This document shows positions 7,965 through 15,534 of a DNA stretch of 37,770 bases, piece after piece (positions within the stretch are counted from its first letter, which is position 1; each line of letters opens with the position of its first letter). The position numbers and the translations under genes are program-made. The stretch is from the NCBI GenBank assembly GCA_017468395.1, contig JAFUIR010000006.1, forward strand, positions 1 to 37,770, given 5' to 3'. This stretch comes from Lachnospiraceae bacterium. GTDB taxonomy: Bacteria; Bacillota; Clostridia; Lachnospirales; Lachnospiraceae. The notes under the pieces are model-generated. The model did no database searches and was not told where the DNA came from. It was given only the letters and a program-made list of their open reading frames with translations.

Positions 7965-9815
7965 ATGGATATTAATCAGGTGGGAAGTATGCTTGCCTAC
8001 AAAAGAACAAAAGACAATGTTAGTATGAATGATTTGTGTGAAGGAATATGTGACAGGAGTTTTTATAACCGGTTGGAACAGGGGAAAAGGGGCTGTGAAA
8101 AAATAGTTGCAGAAGCGCTTTTGCAGCGAGTGGGATTTGCTTCCGACAAGTTTATCTATTTTCTGGATTCAGAGGAATACAAGTTATTGCAGATTAGGGA
8201 AAATTTAATTGGTGCTGTGGATAGGGAAGAATTTGCGAAAGCAGAAGAGTTATACGGAGAATACGAGAAAGAGACGGCGAAAAGGAGTGTGTTACATCGG
8301 CAGTTTCTGCTTCTGATAGACAGTGTTTTATATTGGAGAAAACAATTGTATCAGAAAAGTCAGGTAGACTTTGAGTTGATTGAACGAAAGTTATGTGAGG
8401 CATGGAATATTACGAGAGGTAATTATAAACTTGCAGAGGGTTGTCCTCAATATATGGGATTTGTGGAACTTCTCATCAAGTGCTTTTATTTCCGGCTACA
8501 AGAAGAGCAGGGGAGGATAGTATGTGCTCTTAATGGGTACGAGAATATTCTTGCCTACATGAATGAAAAAATGGATGAAAGGGATAAAGCCACCTTTTAT
8601 ATACAAACTGCCTACAGAATGCTTTGCTTAATGGAGAAAATCGGAGAAAGTACAGATGAGACGCAGGAACAGTTATATCAAAATTGTATGACTTTTTTAA
8701 AGCGGCATGGAAGAATGACCTGTTTGAGCGAATTGGCGGAGTATCGCATGGCCTATTTGGAGAGGGTAAAGAAAATAGTAAACTTTAATGATGCGAAGAA
8801 GGAAGTTAGTGAACTAAAAAAAATAATTTGTATTGTGCATTGGTTATATGAAAAATATCAGGTAAATACCAATGACTGGAGTTGGTATTTGCCATTGGGA
8901 ATGGAAGAAGTGATTCCCTTGTCGGAGGCGATAAGGGGGAGAAGGTTGTCCTTTGGGTGGACACAGGAGGAATTGGCGGAGGGGATTTGTGACCCGGTTA
9001 CGATATCCCGAATTGAGACCGGTGCATCTAACTGTAGACTTGGAAAGTTAGGGGATTTGATGGACAAACTTCATTTACCCGGAGGCACTGCAGTTTTGGC
9101 AGTACGGACGGGAAGGTTTGAACTATATGATAAGGTTGATGAGGTGGGACGTCTTTCCAGTTTTGGTCTTTTTAACGAAATCAGACCGTTGTTGAGTGAA
9201 CTAAAAGAAAAGGTGGTTCATGATAGATATACAGAGCAATATTTATTAGGGAAAGAAGGAAGGGCAAATTATTTATTGGGTATTTGGAGTGCAGAGAAAT
9301 GTTGGGAGACTTCGAAAAAGGCACTTTATATGACGGTGCCAATGAAGGAACCAAGAGAATTAGAAAAGTGGTCTTTTACGAAAACAGAAGTCAACATTAT
9401 TAATGGTTTCTCTTACGATGGGGAAAGGATTGGAAAGGCAAAAGAAGCGATAGAATGGCTTCATGTAGTACGCCAATATTATGAGAGACAAATTCTTGAC
9501 GTTTCTCATTATGTGAGAGGGTATGAAATGACGTTGCGCAATCTTGGAGATTTGTTGGGGAACGCAAACGAATTCGAAGAGGCAATTCAATATGAAGATA
9601 CGGCAATTTGTTTGGGATTGCAGATGAAAAAGACTAATGTATTAGGTTTAACATTATATGATAGGGCGTGGAATATGGAGCAGTTATGGGGAAAGGATTA
9701 TACGAAAGAAGAGAGCCGTCCCTATATGGAAGCAGCGCTTATTTTAAGCAGATTATATTCAAAACAGCAAGCAGTTGCCCATGTAGAGAAACATTGGGAG
9801 AAATTTTATTCTTAG
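7965..9815 (+). CDS. Tandem XRE/helical-repeat transcriptional regulator (RRNPP-like)
   Basis: This is a 616-aa cytoplasmic protein built as two related halves. Residues ~6-60 form a degenerate XRE helix-turn-helix (LCEGICDRSFYNRLEQGK), and residues ~319-375 form a clearer one (GWTQEELAEGICDPVTISR). Each is followed by a long helical region resembling TPR repeats. The shared EGICD...R.E.G core shows an internal duplication. The architecture, HTH plus TPR-like ligand domain, is that of peptide-sensing RRNPP regulators (Rgg, PlcR, PrgX), but doubled. Its stop is 5 bp from the stop of a convergent 50-aa signal-peptide gene, as for regulator/pheromone pairs. Target regulation is probably the plus-strand operon at 10184-15534. 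The ribosome-binding site is suboptimal (GGGAG 13 bases upstream), so the start is moderately certain. Confidence 0.8.
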   Translation: MDINQVGSMLAYKRTKDNVSMNDLCEGICDRSFYNRLEQGKRGCEKIVAEALLQRVGFASDKFIYFLDSEEYKLLQIRENLIGAVDREEFAKAEELYGEYEKETAKRSVLHRQFLLLIDSVLYWRKQLYQKSQVDFELIERKLCEAWNITRGNYKLAEGCPQYMGFVELLIKCFYFRLQEEQGRIVCALNGYENILAYMNEKMDERDKATFYIQTAYRMLCLMEKIGESTDETQEQLYQNCMTFLKRHGRMTCLSELAEYRMAYLERVKKIVNFNDAKKEVSELKKIICIVHWLYEKYQVNTNDWSWYLPLGMEEVIPLSEAIRGRRLSFGWTQEELAEGICDPVTISRIETGASNCRLGKLGDLMDKLHLPGGTAVLAVRTGRFELYDKVDEVGRLSSFGLFNEIRPLLSELKEKVVHDRYTEQYLLGKEGRANYLLGIWSAEKCWETSKKALYMTVPMKEPRELEKWSFTKTEVNIINGFSYDGERIGKAKEAIEWLHVVRQYYERQILDVSHYVRGYEMTLRNLGDLLGNANEFEEAIQYEDTAICLGLQMKKTNVLGLTLYDRAWNMEQLWGKDYTKEESRPYMEAALILSRLYSKQQAVAHVEKHWEKFYS

Positions 9816-9820
9816 AGAAA

Positions 9821-9973
9821 TCACGTTTCATTTATATCGTCATATTCTTGAACGGAGCAAATCTGAATCATTGAATTGGGAGAAGAATTAGGTGTTCCGG
9901 AAGGAAATGCTAGTGAAAACGCACACACCAACATTAATAACAGTAACTTTGAAATTAAATTTTTCTTTTTCAT
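9821..9973 (-). CDS. Short exported peptide, candidate pheromone
   Basis: A 50-aa frame runs from ATG (9973) to TGA (9821). It has an excellent AAAAGGAGAT site nine bases upstream, which supports real translation. Residues 1-9 are Lys-rich (MKKKNLISK), followed by a hydrophobic core LLLLMLVCAFSLA and a plausible signal-peptidase site after Ala22 (S-L-A). The remaining ~28 residues are polar with one Cys and an acidic C-terminus (QEYDDINET). Cys17 is preceded by Val, so this is not a lipobox. The gene converges on the XRE regulator with 5 bp between stops. Size and layout resemble PapR or Phr precursors. Alternatively it could be a small toxin or a bacteriocin-like peptide. It is too short for default gene callers. 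Confidence 0.65.
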   Translation of the reverse strand: MKKKNLISKLLLLMLVCAFSLAFPSGTPNSSPNSMIQICSVQEYDDINET

Positions 9974-10014
9974 CTGTAAAATCTCCTTTTTATTTTTAAT
10001 ATTACAAATAATAG

Positions 10015-10076
10015 TCTAAAAGAACATAACAAAAGTGGCACAAAATTTTGTGCCACTTTTGTTATGTTCTTTTAGA
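10015..10076. repeat. 62-bp perfect palindrome in the divergent intergenic region
   Basis: Bases 10015-10045 are the exact reverse complement of 10046-10076, with no spacer. The centre contains GTGGCAC-AAAATTTT-GTGCCAC, flanked by A-rich sequence on the left and T-rich sequence on the right, so in RNA from either strand it forms a terminator-like hairpin. It lies between the minus-strand peptide gene (ATG at 9973) and the plus-strand operon (first ATG at 10184). Confidence 0.95.
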
Positions 10077-10183
10077 AAGGGATAGGATAATTTGATATTA
10101 AGGATTTTTGACAATTATGTTTCTTGCATGGAAAGAAAGATGAGAGGAGTATAAGTAATATATTAAATTAAAGGGGGAAAAAG

Positions 10184-11050
10184 ATGAAGAAAACAGTGTC
10201 TGTAAAAAGTTTGCTGATTATTGTGTTTGCTTTAATTGGTCTGTTTGTTGTGTTGGGGGTAGGCGGTTATGTTTTTTTGATACATGAGCCGGAGGAAGAA
10301 TATGCACTTTCTATCGTGAAATATGGAAGTGATATGGACGAGATTGTGTTGAAACAGGAGGAAACAAATTTAGAAACATTTATTCCGCATGAAAAGGATT
10401 TAAATTTATGTATTTATTTATCCGGACAATGTAAGGGGTGTGTGGAATTTTTAGAGGAGTTTTCCAAGATACGGGATGTTTTGGGCGAGAATACAATTTC
10501 CTATTCATTCATTTTTACCTCTTCTCTTCCTAGAAATATAGAAGAATATGGAGTGGATAAAGAAATGTGTTATAGACCTCTTGATAATATTCTATTGGCT
10601 ACTTCCACACCTACTTTTTTTCTGATAAATCAAGATGGAATAGTAGAATTTACAACAATAGAGTTTGATTTGATGCTAGAGAAGATTGTTGGCTTTGAGG
10701 GGTTTGACATTGAAGAAGCAAAGAGCAATGCTACGGAATATATATTAGAGAAATATTGTTCTGATGAGACAAATAAAAAGAAATTAGTTTATTTTGCAAT
10801 GAAGGGGTGTCCAGACTGCGAAGAGGCGGACAAGGTAATTGAGAGTACAGAAATTGTCTCTGTTTATGATGTAACAAAAATATATGCATGGAATTTTTCG
10901 GAAGCAAATTATATCTGTGATAACTACAATTTATTTCAACATATTTATGAATTAAATTGGTATCCCAGTTTTTTAATCTGGAAAGATGGCTTACCACAGA
11001 TTCTGGGAGAAATGTCAAATCAAGAATTGAGAGAGCGTTTGTTGCAGTAA
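10184..11050 (+). CDS. Membrane-anchored protein with two thioredoxin-like domains
   Basis: This 288-aa protein has one N-terminal membrane helix (about residues 10-33), after which the rest should lie outside the membrane. Two thioredoxin-like units follow. The first has CKGC (83-86) and a cis-Pro site at T142-P143 in TPTFFLINQDG. The second has CPDC (209-212) and Y260-P261 in WYPSFLIWKDG. Each thus keeps the CxxC plus cis-proline pair needed for dithiol/disulfide exchange. The next gene encodes a secreted six-cysteine peptide, so a dedicated oxidase, isomerase or reductase role is likely (inference). ATG follows AAAGGGGGAAA. It is the first gene of the operon. Two tandem domains on one anchor are unusual compared with single-domain TlpA/ResA proteins. 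Confidence 0.8.
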   Translation: MKKTVSVKSLLIIVFALIGLFVVLGVGGYVFLIHEPEEEYALSIVKYGSDMDEIVLKQEETNLETFIPHEKDLNLCIYLSGQCKGCVEFLEEFSKIRDVLGENTISYSFIFTSSLPRNIEEYGVDKEMCYRPLDNILLATSTPTFFLINQDGIVEFTTIEFDLMLEKIVGFEGFDIEEAKSNATEYILEKYCSDETNKKKLVYFAMKGCPDCEEADKVIESTEIVSVYDVTKIYAWNFSEANYICDNYNLFQHIYELNWYPSFLIWKDGLPQILGEMSNQELRERLLQ

Positions 11051-11129: not shown

Positions 11130-11408
11130 ATGGCTAAGGGTAAAAAAATTATGGCACTTGTTATGAGCACTTTGTTGTTGTGTACAAGCGGGGCTTTGCA
11201 GGTATCAGCAGAAGAAAATGACTTTAGTTGTTCAGCATGGATTTCAAATGGAGTTACATATTCGTGTAAAACTCCAATCTGTCATGATGGCAGTAATTTA
11301 ACAAATATTAGGAAGGTAAGTTATACGAAATATTGCCAGTATGTAGACACCGGAGAAACCTTTCAACTGACGGATACAGACGAAACAAACGAAGGTTGTT
11401 GTAGATAA
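11130..11408 (+). CDS. Secreted six-cysteine peptide precursor
   Basis: This 92-aa precursor has a clear signal peptide: basic MAKGKK, a hydrophobic core, and cleavage predicted after Ala27 (QVSA). The ~65-aa mature part holds six cysteines at residues 34, 46, 51, 69, 90 and 91, spaced C-x11-C-x4-C-x17-C-x20-CC, and ends GCCR. That suits three disulfide bonds. ATG at 11130 follows GGAGGG. It sits between the double-thioredoxin gene and the propeller lipoprotein and ABC genes. A secreted antimicrobial or signalling peptide is the leading idea. I do not recognise a described bacteriocin family, and a structural or regulatory subunit of the ABC complex is possible. Confidence 0.75.
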   Translation: MAKGKKIMALVMSTLLLCTSGALQVSAEENDFSCSAWISNGVTYSCKTPICHDGSNLTNIRKVSYTKYCQYVDTGETFQLTDTDETNEGCCR

Positions 11409-11448: not shown

Positions 11449-12486
11449 ATGAAGAAAAAAAGTTTAGTGGTAATTATTTTATGTACGTTTCTTTTAAATG
11501 GATGTGGAACGATAGATAGTGCAGATATAGGCGGTGAAAATAAATCAGATGATACCCATATAGAAGTGAGTGTGAAAGAAGGCAATAGAGAGGAAGGACC
11601 GGACGAGGATATCCAAATGCCGGATCGGGTTCTTTATGGTTATGAAGAAAGATATGATATGGAGGAACTGGGACAGGATGTAACCGGTATAGAGACACCC
11701 TGTGGCATGTGTATCTGGCAAGAGAAATTGTTTGTGTGTGATTATGATAATCACTGCATTGTGCAATTGGATTTGCAGGGGAAACCAATGTCTACTTACG
11801 GGAAACTGGGCTCTGCGGAGGGAGAATTTGTACATCCTACGGCAATGACAGTCTGGGAAGATAAATTGTATGTGCTGGATAGCGGGAATTTGCGGGCGCA
11901 GGTTTATGATAAAGATATGCAACTAATAGAGGTGATATCTTTGTGGAATGACCAGTCAACAGTTATGTATGATGAATTTCGGGATATAGCGGTAGATGGA
12001 GAAGGAAACATCTATGTATGCACGGATGCTGTCATGAAAGACGCAGCACGGATATTTTGCGTGTCTAAAGGAGTGACAACTCCCTTGAATCAAGTAATAC
12101 AAGGTTATTTGGCGCAAGGAAGAGATGGAACTGTTTATGCGGTGGATGCAGTAGAATTGAGTGTAGTTGAAGAAAATTATAAGTGGAGAGCGTGTACAGG
12201 AAATAACTATTTGTATCAAGTAACCAAAGAAGGTGTAATGCAGTTAGCAGAACTTCCATTTATGTATGCTCCTATGGATTTTGTTGTGGTTGAAGAAGAA
12301 TTTTATACGGTTTCATGTACATGGGGACAGATTAATAAAATTTCGATGGAAGGTGAATTGTTAGAGGCTGTTTATAATCTGAAACCGGATTTTGGTCCCA
12401 GTACGGGTTATATTGTAGAATACAACGGAGAATTTTGGGTTGGTATTTCTGATAATGGTGTGATATATCATTTCACGGAAAAGTAG
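11449..12486 (+). CDS. Beta-propeller (NHL-like) lipoprotein
   Basis: This 345-aa protein has a lipoprotein signal peptide with LLNGC, so Cys19 would be lipidated and the protein held on the outer face of the membrane. From residue ~75 it has repeated strand blocks such as KLFVCDYDNHCIVQLD, KLYVLDSGNLRAQVYD and GNIYVCTDAV. These are typical of NHL or six-bladed propellers, with the phrase GSAEGEFVHPTAMTV characteristic of NHL repeats. Propellers usually bind peptides or proteins. It is placed between the Cys-rich peptide and two permeases and could be a peptide receptor or immunity lipoprotein. Start follows AAGGGG. Spacing to the next gene is 10 bp. Confidence 0.82.
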   Translation: MKKKSLVVIILCTFLLNGCGTIDSADIGGENKSDDTHIEVSVKEGNREEGPDEDIQMPDRVLYGYEERYDMEELGQDVTGIETPCGMCIWQEKLFVCDYDNHCIVQLDLQGKPMSTYGKLGSAEGEFVHPTAMTVWEDKLYVLDSGNLRAQVYDKDMQLIEVISLWNDQSTVMYDEFRDIAVDGEGNIYVCTDAVMKDAARIFCVSKGVTTPLNQVIQGYLAQGRDGTVYAVDAVELSVVEENYKWRACTGNNYLYQVTKEGVMQLAELPFMYAPMDFVVVEEEFYTVSCTWGQINKISMEGELLEAVYNLKPDFGPSTGYIVEYNGEFWVGISDNGVIYHFTEK

Positions 12487-12496
12487 AGGGAAAAGC

Positions 12497-13600
12497 ATGT
12501 TTTTATTTCAAAGTGTATGGAATAACTTGCGCAGCAATCGTATCCTGAACGGAATTGTGGTGCTGACAATAGCAGTGGGGCTATTATTTCCGCTGGCACA
12601 AGGATGTATTATTGAGAATTGTTTTGTTAACATGAATTTGTGTCAGTATAATGAACCGGAAAAAATGGTGGTAACAAGTTTTCATTCCTCTTACTTGTCC
12701 CCGGAGCAGGTGCAGGAAATGCTTTTGCCTATGGAGGAAGAAATCCAAAAGTACGGATATATTTCTTATTCCAGTGCAAGTGTAGTATGGGAAAACGAGA
12801 TGTTTTCTACCGGAGTTTCCGGTTGTGAAGGTGCGTATACAGAACTGGAGGGTTTTCGTCTACTGAAAGGTCGGCGGATAACAGAAGAAGAATTTTCTAA
12901 GGGGGCTAAGGTCTGTTATCTAATGGAAGGCAGCGACATATATGATGGTGGCGCAACACTGGGAGATAGAATTCATATACTTGGACAAGAATACGAAATT
13001 GTAGGGATTGCTGCTATGCTGAAAATGTATGGGTCTGTGGTAATCCCTTATGCCTGTGTTGCGGAAACTTTAGGAAAAAATAATTTTCAATACAGATTTA
13101 GTGTTCAAGGGAAAGTGCCTCTAGACGTGCAGGATATACAAAGACTGATGCCCTCGGGTGTTTTGTTTATTGAATTGGGGCAGGGCGAGAGTGTCAACAT
13201 GCCATACATAGACTCCTTGTGGAGTTTGATTCTAAAGAGAGCGAGAATTATGCTGTTAGTCCTTGGGGTTTCTCTAATTAGCATATGTGCAGTTTTGTTG
13301 GGCAGAGTGTCTGGTCAGCGTTATCAGATAGGGGTAAAACTTTCGCTGGGAGCGAAAAAGAAAACAATTTTAAGGGAAATTTGGGGAGAAAATACGTTGT
13401 TAGTATTGCTTGCGTTAGTGGTTGATGCGGTTGTTTTCGCCTTTGTAAATTTTGCATCGGATGGAGTTATGCAATATCCATCGTTTTTCTTGTTTGCGGT
13501 GACTTTTTTGTTCGTTTCATTATTGGTAGGTGTCGCCGGTTTGATTATCTATATTAAAATCGTTGGCGGTAAAAATACAATAAAATTGTTGAAAAGGTAA
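12497..13600 (+). CDS. FtsX/MacB-like ABC permease, subunit 1
   Basis: This 367-aa integral membrane protein has the type VII (MacB-like) layout: one N-terminal helix (about 18-38), a large extracytoplasmic MacB_PCD-like domain to about 245, then three C-terminal helices. The coupling segment QIGVKLSLGAKKKTILREI is the FtsX-family motif that contacts the ATPase. It is followed 9 bp later by a second permease, suggesting a heterodimer. MacB-type systems do not carry substrate through a channel; they use mechanotransmission to expel or sense peptides outside. Here the system may release, or protect from, the six-Cys peptide. Confidence 0.83.
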   Translation: MFLFQSVWNNLRSNRILNGIVVLTIAVGLLFPLAQGCIIENCFVNMNLCQYNEPEKMVVTSFHSSYLSPEQVQEMLLPMEEEIQKYGYISYSSASVVWENEMFSTGVSGCEGAYTELEGFRLLKGRRITEEEFSKGAKVCYLMEGSDIYDGGATLGDRIHILGQEYEIVGIAAMLKMYGSVVIPYACVAETLGKNNFQYRFSVQGKVPLDVQDIQRLMPSGVLFIELGQGESVNMPYIDSLWSLILKRARIMLLVLGVSLISICAVLLGRVSGQRYQIGVKLSLGAKKKTILREIWGENTLLVLLALVVDAVVFAFVNFASDGVMQYPSFFLFAVTFLFVSLLVGVAGLIIYIKIVGGKNTIKLLKR

Positions 13601-13609
13601 GATGAGCCT

Positions 13610-14857
13610 ATGAGATATTCAATTCGAAAAGCGCTGACGCACTTCCGATACTATTTTTTCACTTATTTGTCAGTAATTTTGGAATATGCAGTGGGTGTTG
13701 CAATTGCGGCGGTTTGTTTCAATTTATTGCTGTCATGTAATGACAAACTAAAGGAAGTGGAAAAAGCCTTGTCAGAGGATGTGTTACAGGTTACATATTG
13801 GGGGCAGACGGATGAGTGGGCTATTTCTCCAGACTTGATGGTAGAAGTAAGGAGAGATGCAGATATTGGGGCAAAACAGGAGATGATTTATGTGCCCTAT
13901 GTCTCATGGGGATTTTCTATTCCGGATGAAGAATGGAGAAATGTCTATGTGATGTTCCCAACCAAGGAAGATTACGAAAAACTGGTAGGGGAAAGCAGGG
14001 AAGAAAAGATATATGTAGGAAGTATAGTAGAAGAGTACTTGGTGGAGTTAGAGAAAATATCAAAAGATTCGAAAAAAATTGGGTTCTTTTATAGTAATTT
14101 GCTTGAGTGGAATGAGGGAACTTTGTGGTTAGGTCAGCAAACTATTGCAGGAAAAGACACTGCTGAAATGGAAATTGAAGAGGTTGAAGTGGTGTTAAAC
14201 AAGCCGTTCAAACTGGTTAGTCAGGCGGAGCAGTTTTCGTTGCAGGAATGTATTATTTTGCCACCGGAATATATGTCGCTTTTAGAGAATGGGAGAAATG
14301 TGGGGAAAGATGCTATTGTATTGTTGCCCACAAATAGTGAAAGGTCGGATATGCAGGCCGTTGGTAAGTTACTTCAAAGGCTTGCGGAGGGCAATGAGGA
14401 ACTGCATTTTGAAGTGACCAGTCAACTGGTTGCTTTAAGGAAAAGTGCATCGGATTTGACTGCGGAGTATCAGGATTTAGTTTATGTGAGTGTTTCTATT
14501 CTGGCGATTGTAATGCTGGGAATGACGGGAGTATTTATAATACTGTTACAAAAACGAAGGAATGGAGTTGCAATTTCGTTGGCTTATGGCGCAACAAAAT
14601 TGCAGGTGTTTGGAGAATTGTTCTTGGAAGTTTTCTTTGTGTTCGGTATAGGCGGTTTTATAGGCATGTTTGTTGCAACAAAAGTATCACCTAAAGTTGT
14701 AATAGAGGCCTTGGAGGTGGTCGCATCAGTTCGATTTGAAGTAGTTGTGGCAGTTTTACTTTGTACATTTTTTGAAACTTTGGTAGTTTGCTTGTTTAGT
14801 GTGCAGGCGGTTAAAAGCAGGACATTAGTCGAGACATTAAGGCAGACCCACAGATAA
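13610..14857 (+). CDS. FtsX/MacB-like ABC permease, subunit 2
   Basis: This 415-aa protein has the same four-helix MacB topology: an N-terminal helix around residues 20-40, an extracytoplasmic domain of ~240 residues, and three C-terminal helices. The conserved loop NGVAISLAYGATKLQVFGEL corresponds to the FtsX-family coupling helix. It is divergent from the upstream permease, so this is an obligate pair rather than a recent duplicate. Translation starts close behind the previous stop with only a modest AAGGTAAG site, so translational coupling is likely. The ATPase gene follows after 17 bp. Confidence 0.82.
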   Translation: MRYSIRKALTHFRYYFFTYLSVILEYAVGVAIAAVCFNLLLSCNDKLKEVEKALSEDVLQVTYWGQTDEWAISPDLMVEVRRDADIGAKQEMIYVPYVSWGFSIPDEEWRNVYVMFPTKEDYEKLVGESREEKIYVGSIVEEYLVELEKISKDSKKIGFFYSNLLEWNEGTLWLGQQTIAGKDTAEMEIEEVEVVLNKPFKLVSQAEQFSLQECIILPPEYMSLLENGRNVGKDAIVLLPTNSERSDMQAVGKLLQRLAEGNEELHFEVTSQLVALRKSASDLTAEYQDLVYVSVSILAIVMLGMTGVFIILLQKRRNGVAISLAYGATKLQVFGELFLEVFFVFGIGGFIGMFVATKVSPKVVIEALEVVASVRFEVVVAVLLCTFFETLVVCLFSVQAVKSRTLVETLRQTHR

Positions 14858-14874: not shown

Positions 14875-15534
14875 ATGATAAGAGTAGAGAATATGACCAA
14901 AATCTATGGTGCAGAGCAGGTGCAGACAAAGGCTCTTGACGGGGTATCTTTTCAGATAGAAGAAGGGGAATTTGTAGCAATAACCGGAAAATCGGGATGC
15001 GGAAAAAGTTCTCTTTTACATATTCTGGGTGGTATGGATATGCAGACATCGGGACATTATTTTTTCGAAGAAACGGAAGTAAATAAACTAAGTGATAAAG
15101 AGATGGCTGAATTTCGGAATCGGAAAATCGGCTTTGTGTTTCAAGCGTTCTATTTGTTGGAAGAATTTCAGACATTACAAAACATAGAACTTCCACTAGG
15201 GTATAGTGGATGGAAAAGTGGTAAAAGAAGAAAACGTGCTATGGAATTATTACAATTGGTGGGGCTTTCCCATAAAGGAAGAAACCATCCTTCGCAATTG
15301 TCCGGCGGCGAACAGCAAAGAATAGCAATTGCAAGAGCAATAGCTAATTATCCGAAACTTTTGTTGGCAGATGAACCGACGGGAAATTTAGACAAAGAAA
15401 ATGGGGAACGTATTATGGAACTCTTAAAGAGGCTGAATAAAGAAGGGCTTACAATTGTAATGGTTACCCATGACCTTGAACTTGCTAAAGAGGCTTCCAG
15501 AATTATCCACATATCTGATGGAAAGATTGTTTAA
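14875..15534 (+). CDS. ABC transporter ATP-binding protein (MacB/LolD type)
   Basis: This 219-aa cytoplasmic ATPase powers the two preceding permeases. Walker A is GKSGCGKSS, the signature is LSGGEQQRIAIARA, Walker B and the D-loop are LLLADEPTGNLD, and the switch His lies in VTHD. The DEPTGNLD form is typical of the MacB/LolD/FtsE subfamily. Length is normal for a stand-alone subunit. It is the last gene of the 10184-15534 operon. No clear hairpin terminator follows, although the next gene has its own promoter at 15543. Confidence 0.95.
   Translation: MIRVENMTKIYGAEQVQTKALDGVSFQIEEGEFVAITGKSGCGKSSLLHILGGMDMQTSGHYFFEETEVNKLSDKEMAEFRNRKIGFVFQAFYLLEEFQTLQNIELPLGYSGWKSGKRRKRAMELLQLVGLSHKGRNHPSQLSGGEQQRIAIARAIANYPKLLLADEPTGNLDKENGERIMELLKRLNKEGLTIVMVTHDLELAKEASRIIHISDGKIV

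Follow-up and report, generated by a model that had tools for sequence, protein, structure and literature searches.

A predicted quorum-sensing module in Lachnospiraceae combining a tandem RRNPP-type regulator, a convergent exported-peptide gene and a palindromic operator

We have analysed a 37,770-nt stretch of DNA (the window) from Lachnospiraceae bacterium (assembly GCA_017468395.1, contig JAFUIR010000006.1). It encodes a 616-aa regulator with two helix-turn-helix (HTH) and two tetratricopeptide repeat (TPR) regions and, on the opposite strand, a 50-codon exported-peptide gene whose end lies just beyond that of the regulator gene (Table 1). An original prediction, made from the letters of the sequence, had proposed these two genes as an RRNPP-type quorum-sensing pair. 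That proposal was supported by our analysis, which added a predicted operator and a divergent target operon, both beyond the positions 7965-9973 first pointed out, and a split two-gene form of the receptor. Altogether, the regulator is likely to be a pheromone-activated single-chain pseudo-dimer that, through positive feedback and control of a secreted-peptide operon, would constitute a self-contained quorum-sensing module.

Table 1. Features of the predicted module and of the operon next to it (positions in the window)
Feature	Position	Strand	Remarks
Tandem RRNPP-type regulator, 616 aa	7965..9815	+	One open frame; HTH1 about 5-55, TPR1 about 69-297, HTH2 about 319-368, TPR2 about 386-614
Pre-peptide gene, 50 codons, signal peptide; likely pheromone precursor	9821..9973	-	ATG start preceded by a strong Shine-Dalgarno site
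Possible -10 TAATAT, peptide promoter, 20 nt outside left motif	9999..10004	-	Score 5.7, cut-off 6.4
Perfect 62-nt palindrome, predicted operator	10015..10076	.	Between peptide gene and divergent operon
Left 18-bp motif CATAACAAAAGTGGCACA, predicted activator site for peptide promoter	10025..10042	+	
Right 18-bp motif, identical, inverted; predicted activator site for target operon	10049..10066	-	
Possible -10 GATAAT, target operon promoter, 19 nt outside right motif	10086..10091	+	Score 6.1, cut-off 6.4
Thioredoxin-like protein, N-terminal hydrophobic stretch; first gene of divergent operon	10184..11050	+	
Secreted Cys-rich 92-aa peptide ending CCR, possible product	11130..11408	+	
NHL beta-propeller protein, lipoprotein-like start	11449..12486	+	
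MacB/FtsX-type permease	12497..13600	+	
FtsX-type permease	13610..14857	+	
ABC transporter ATPase, LolD/MacB type	14875..15534	+	

The two halves of the regulator share the core EGICD...R.E.G, from which an internal duplication had been claimed. Alignment of residues 1-300 with residues 310-616 (hhalign, 62-row profiles) gave a probability of 99.9 over 255 columns and covered HTH and TPR alike, which confirmed the duplication. The structure models reached a predicted local distance difference test (pLDDT) of 93.4 for the 616-aa regulator and 93.9, and each half was predicted to contain a TPR superhelix and to adopt a PlcR-like fold. PlcR ranked first in the fold search for each half, with ComR, NprR and Rap also among the matches. 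It was likewise the best PDB match by sequence of the regulator-family profile, over the C-half, and the guessed kinship with RRNPP receptors thus held. In profile comparisons, the C-half matched PlcR residues 10-288 with an E of 1.5e-23 and the N-half matched residues 1-259 with an E of 1.1e-6; Rgg2 (4yv6/5w4m) was matched too by the N-half, for which generic designed TPR proteins also ranked high. The Pfam family RNPP_C matched the 616-aa regulator with 26.9 bits (cut-off 26.5) and was reached at an E of 0.01 or better by 10 of the 62 family members. Whole-chain Foldseek matches to many eukaryotic TPR proteins, as well as matches to designed TPR proteins and, for the whole family, to kinesin light chain in the sequence-profile lists, were discounted as generic TPR similarity. 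The homology across HTH and TPR, the TPR superhelix of the peptide-binding type and the adjacent small exported propeptide are those expected of RRNPP(A) systems. The PlcR subfamily is departed from in two respects, each chain containing two HTHs and not one, and the predicted binding motif being the asymmetric 18-bp cATGACAtATttGGnAAA and not the symmetric box TATGnAnnnnTnCATA. A fold shared by regulator and PlcR, as modelled here, does not prove peptide binding.

The small open reading frame (ORF) was found exactly as predicted, with its stop 5 nt beyond that of the regulator. The sequence AAAAAGGAGATTTTACAG, a strong Shine-Dalgarno site, precedes its ATG start, and the product has a signal-peptide-like beginning. 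We have then investigated whether homologous regulators possess such a neighbour, the lack of which would have spoken against the pairing. An ORF was counted if it had 30-90 codons, a Shine-Dalgarno site, a basic start and a hydrophobic stretch, and ended between -40 and +60 nt from the regulator stop; these criteria were fixed after viewing L001-L019 and kept unchanged for the remaining loci, and a regulator was admitted if 300 nt or more were in view downstream of it. A convergent signal-peptide ORF was present in 55 of 87 full-length homologues, 37/52 in a first set (L001-L074, 2 of 54 regulators having been dropped for less than 300 nt downstream) and 18/35 in a set fetched later (L095-L131). 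The count of 87 leaves out L075-L094 (except L090 and L091) and identical proteins (L020 = L002). Only 4 of 2450 dinucleotide-shuffled downstream regions passed. Among 163 ends of other ORFs, five passed, and three of these five belong to family members or fragments (L020, L058 and L069). Hence, by these counts, the convergent peptide gene is commoner beside the regulator than chance would give. The commonest geometry was a 4-nt overlap with the regulator end (18/37 and 5/18 passing loci). The paralogue encoded elsewhere in the window genome (C25, L002) is arranged likewise, its peptide gene overlapping by 11 nt.

A last scan of eight loci of named relatives, kept outside the 55/87 count, found the peptide gene, by the same criteria, in five; L157 and L161 did not pass, and L159 ends too early. 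Four of these loci repeat earlier ones (L155, L157, L158 and L156, the last with an identical peptide), while L160 and L162 entered the pN/pS and peptide-motif analyses. For the signal part of the small frame, the pooled ratio of non-synonymous to synonymous change (pN/pS) was 0.23, and for the tail it was 0.59, as calculated from five close pairs that share sequences and are therefore non-independent. The conservation asked of the small frame was thus present, and a conserved signal part with a more variable tail would be compatible with diverging pheromones, although it falls short of proof. The 50-aa peptide matched no Pfam family, and against NCBIfam it reached only sub-threshold models, the best being PhrA_Strep with an E of 0.064. 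Re-import of the peptide would call for an oligopeptide permease; one OppA-type protein (PF00496) was matched in the genome of the window, and such a match was also present in 11 of 14 control genomes. In some pre-peptides (L017, L026 and L027), the signal stretch ends with a Cys in a lipobox-like context.

Of the 55 full-length peptide loci, 36 have a palindrome with a score of 14 or more in the 200 nt before the peptide start (35 if L022 is excluded, where the repeat covers the ribosome site), compared with none of 550 shuffles. One locus set, drawn without L022, kept 39 of 40 loci, four of the 39 with half-length regulators. A Gibbs search of 86 arms from 43 loci, with no shuffled control, yielded the 18-bp motif described above as common to the arms. 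A strong TATAAT-like element stood 18-24 nt outside the motif at 27 of 36 loci on the peptide side and 18 of 36 on the far side, with a peak at 21 nt on both sides, while other spacing windows averaged 2.5 and 2.6 loci with a maximum of 7. The 36 loci were chosen after the arms had been seen, by dropping seven of the 43 palindromes that lacked a consistent motif register; with all 43 loci, the numbers were 30 and 20. This spacing to the -10 element is stronger sequence evidence than the motif score. Transcription starts about 7 nt past a -10 element. Therefore, a -10 at 21 nt would place the motif centre near -42 of two divergent promoters, those of the peptide gene and of the target operon, and near -42 is the usual position of a class II activator. 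The gap between the two motifs varied from 3 to 42 nt, so that each arm may work alone. In agreement with the family, the -10 candidates of the window match the preferred spacing, though they are weak. The closest homologue (L022/L135, 46% identity) has a single arm with its -10 at 21 nt, and its next gene does not diverge; among two-arm loci with the next gene in view, that gene was divergent in 29 of 32.

The operon beyond the palindrome has the same make-up at the paralogous locus (C25): thioredoxin, Cys-rich peptide, NHL lipoprotein, two permeases and ATPase. The counterpart peptide there has 85 aa and ends in CCQ (L085 4715-4972, minus strand), and both Cys-rich peptides are candidate disulfide-bonded bacteriocins. 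The peptide of the window had no Pfam match; a weak PedC/BrcD likeness (E 0.0039) was far below the cut-off. Among 26 extended loci, eight, including the paralogue L085, have an operon for a secreted peptide or one resembling those for ribosomally synthesized and post-translationally modified peptides (RiPPs); 20 hand-chosen proteins from 11 of the 26 loci were analysed further. Radical SAM-SPASM proteins with an ABC transporter were seen in L141, L145 and L154; ThiF, a weak PqqD, M16 and S8 peptidases and an ABC transporter in L142; and a secreted peptide of roughly 110 aa with a solute-binding-like protein (weak in L152) in L150-L152. At the remaining extended loci, the genes in view are for ABC ATPases, unrelated secreted proteins or housekeeping functions, or there are none. 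This suggests that the regulator may control secreted-peptide production at a good part of its loci. We have also searched for a regulon beyond the locus. In the genome of the window, the operator arm with up to three mismatches had three matches, two of them exact at its own locus and the third with three mismatches, and a reversed-pattern control gave one. The arm of the paralogue had seven (two of its own and five with three mismatches) against six in the control, revealing no wider regulon, and the motif was not evident upstream of the regulator gene (best score 4.3).

In the mechanism that we propose, the product of 9973-9821 would be exported through Sec, trimmed, re-imported and held as ligand in a TPR groove of the 616-aa regulator. 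With two PlcR-like units in one chain, a single chain could do the work of a dimer, its two unlike HTHs contacting the two unlike halves of one 18-bp site. The palindrome would represent two inverted copies of this site, each near -42 of its own promoter, with the two promoters lying back to back, and each arm would receive one chain. Once loaded with peptide, the regulator would switch on the gene of that peptide, giving positive feedback, together with the operon on the other side, which encodes the secreted Cys-rich peptide, the thioredoxin and the exporter. More speculatively, and with rather less than even chances, such modules may form a class in Lachnospiraceae and their kin in which two old, non-equivalent receptor units, fused or encoded by adjacent genes, each with its own groove and half-site, perhaps integrate two ligands or occupancies before firing a bidirectional promoter that serves a pheromone and a peptide-antibiotic operon.

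Several observations weigh against this activator model. For the N-half, PlcR stood just ~1.5 Z units over unrelated TPR proteins. The peptide criteria failed in 32 of the 87 homologues, and the later, more distant set passed less often than the first; inspection by eye with relaxed criteria recovered about five of the failing loci, and among the loci that failed are some with a decayed or displaced peptide gene and others that look like solo receptors. The C-terminal core of the peptides is weak, with a log-likelihood of 308.7 vs 263-285 in six shuffles run with fewer restarts (L018, L057, L127, L113 and peptides of up to 36 aa were left out). The motif alone is unspecific: leave-one-out arm scores had a median of 10.8, a 10th percentile of 2.6 and a minimum of -5.1, and the best scores in 58 random 220-nt pieces had a median of 5.3, a 90th percentile of 9.4 and a maximum of 18.3. 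Both -10 candidates of the window score under the cut-off and are outside the counts of 27 and 18. L017 has a single arm (-10 at 23 nt) yet a divergent ORF beyond it, and the next gene was also divergent in 9 of 13 loci lacking a clean two-arm motif. Some neighbours look like housekeeping genes (ppdK-like in L086, purF-like in L088, Trk-like in L135). Relatives of the thioredoxin gene occurred in 3 of 146 genomes, the window genome included, and the other two, in G027 and G031 (L165 and L166), show no regulator in view. Within about 1.3 kb upstream of these two, no palindrome scored above 10, and single motif-like matches reached up to 12.9.

The same parts could also work with the opposite sign, the regulator repressing from both -35 regions until relieved by the peptide. 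The motif does cover the -35 region of both promoters, so that such a repressor fits the spacing too, and in Clostridium acetobutylicum, according to excerpts of PMC7376267, fragments of the peptide QspB counteract the receptor QsrB. We regard repression as unlikely since TTGACA-like -35 elements (at least 4/6 matches) were no commoner in the arms than in shuffles (7/45 vs 13%), which is expected under activator dependence, and since PlcR, the nearest solved relative, is an activator in the accessible part of PMC2464732. A little less probable again is that the small peptide is another secreted effector or immunity peptide under a regulator that senses something else. The tails of the peptides vary and show no sharp mature-peptide motif, and a further secreted peptide, rich in Cys, comes from the target operon; against this, the peptide gene is tied to the 3' end of the regulator in 55/87 homologues, whereas the target operon changes by locus, and both regulator halves have the fold of pheromone receptors.

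Two further alternatives concern the nature of the elements themselves. A perfect inverted repeat such as that of the window could be a bidirectional terminator or an RNA hairpin and not an operator. We consider this very improbable, given that its place is ahead of the peptide gene and in a gap between divergent genes, that the 18-bp motif is common to arms across loci, that the distance to the -10 peaks at 21 nt while the motif-motif gap varies, and that L022 and L017 retain one arm only, with the -10 at 21 and 23 nt. An accidental or antisense nature of the convergent ORF, as its shortness and its absence by our criteria from 32/87 homologues might suggest, is hardly credible: the rarity of such frames in shuffles and the low pN/pS of the signal part argue strongly, as far as conservation goes, against it, as do the strong Shine-Dalgarno site and the same arrangement at the paralogue.

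The double architecture proved real and recurrent among homologues, and its origin was addressed with a quick tree of 84 half-units. The input comprised 28 hand-chosen doubles, 12 singles or fragments and 16 split-pair rows (L134 duplicates L060), with L132, L044 and L089 left out and the 12 singles or fragments outside the count of N/C changes. The N- and C-units of doubles and split pairs fell on two sides of the tree with a single change, and a branch with 36 N-units plus one fragment had a support of 100. From this tree, the two halves are old paralogues. At eight loci (L043, L045, L048, L060, L090, L091, L132 and L133), they are encoded by adjacent genes. Six of them show a separate start codon with a Shine-Dalgarno-like site for the second gene (weak and with TTG in L132); L060 and L133 show none there, and a frameshift is possible. 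L043 and L045 have the same 18-bp motif with the -10 at 21 nt. Since split pairs share the N/C grouping and the motif with the fused forms, the two-unit pair seems older than the fusion, with both forms apparently using the same composite site. Half-length single relatives occur in other families of the order, with exported-peptide genes nearby in some (L061, L063, L066 and L071).

The regulator was matched in 13 of 117 near relatives, window genome counted (E <= 1e-20), and the window genome has two copies. Profile A1 had matches in 44 of the 397 genomes of a family-level sample and in 50 of the 392 of an order-level one; the two samples overlap, half-length relatives are included, and up to three candidates were scored per genome. 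The eight named close relatives (seven titled Lachnospiraceae, one uncultured bacterium) are all metagenome-assembled. Lachnospiraceae are major bacteria of the gut and rumen. No match was found among plasmids, and five unannotated faecal records of a phage collection matched, one of the two inspected having a convergent peptide.

Among known systems, PlcR/PapR of the Bacillus cereus group likewise couples an HTH and TPR receptor to a small exported peptide. It differs from the present system, which has two unlike units per chain, an asymmetric motif in inverted pairs and a preferred -10 distance, and is predicted to serve one locus, whereas PlcR has a large regulon. In excerpts of PMC2464732, putative -10 elements are described downstream of active PlcR boxes. 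Rgg/SHP systems of streptococci, some controlling operons for radical SAM-modified peptides (RaS-RiPPs; PMC13361665 and PMC8092268, both in part), are similar in joining a receptor and a small peptide gene to a modified-peptide operon, and the N-half matches the Rgg2 structures, but these receptors are streptococcal, have a single HTH and ~280 residues, and respond to short hydrophobic peptides. The Qsr/Qsp pairs of C. acetobutylicum are clostridial RRNPP systems, with precursors of 39-50 aa and receptors with an N-terminal Xre-type HTH and six to eight predicted TPRs; the excerpts of PMC7376267 describe no tandem form. RRNPP_detector also pairs TPR receptors with small secreted propeptides, and, in the part of PMC10075063 at hand, it restricts receptors to 250-500 aa. 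A 616-aa receptor lies outside this limit, and a detector of this kind would not list such tandem receptors. In the open-licence literature, full-text searches returned no paper pairing RRNPP with two HTH domains or with Lachnospiraceae, and none of the titles and abstract openings listed concerned a tandem RRNPP receptor, in line with the novelty that had been anticipated for this architecture. The available parts of PMC9765709 and PMC12700828 contain no mention of Lachnospir-, and their text on duplication, tandem or fusion concerns other matters. The predicted tandem circuit is well supported, by sequence comparison, as a new form of RRNPP quorum sensing.

This module offers a search rule (tandem receptor, convergent propeptide and an 18-bp motif about 21 nt from the -10 on each side) by which signal, receptor, operator and target are predicted at many loci. 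Cryptic secreted-peptide and RiPP-like operons might be switched on by synthetic peptide, and the fused and split forms provide a natural experiment on a receptor dimer becoming an obligate two-part receptor.

Some loci deserve separate mention. L004/L157 and L013 keep the palindrome with a peptide gene unrecognisable by our criteria, and may be solo receptors or listeners. In L096/L147, two full-length tandem receptors follow one another, and a single peptide gene converges on the second. The thioredoxin relatives of L165 and L166 adjoin an ABC ATPase or an NHL-like protein. L169 (MT837634.1, faecal, deposited as Bacteriophage sp.) has two adjacent half-length receptor frames, on which an exported-peptide ORF converges; this unannotated record may represent bacterial DNA. 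Downstream of the module in L152 (3859-9583, reverse orientation), a unit of a secreted 107-aa peptide and a 772-aa protein is duplicated head to tail.
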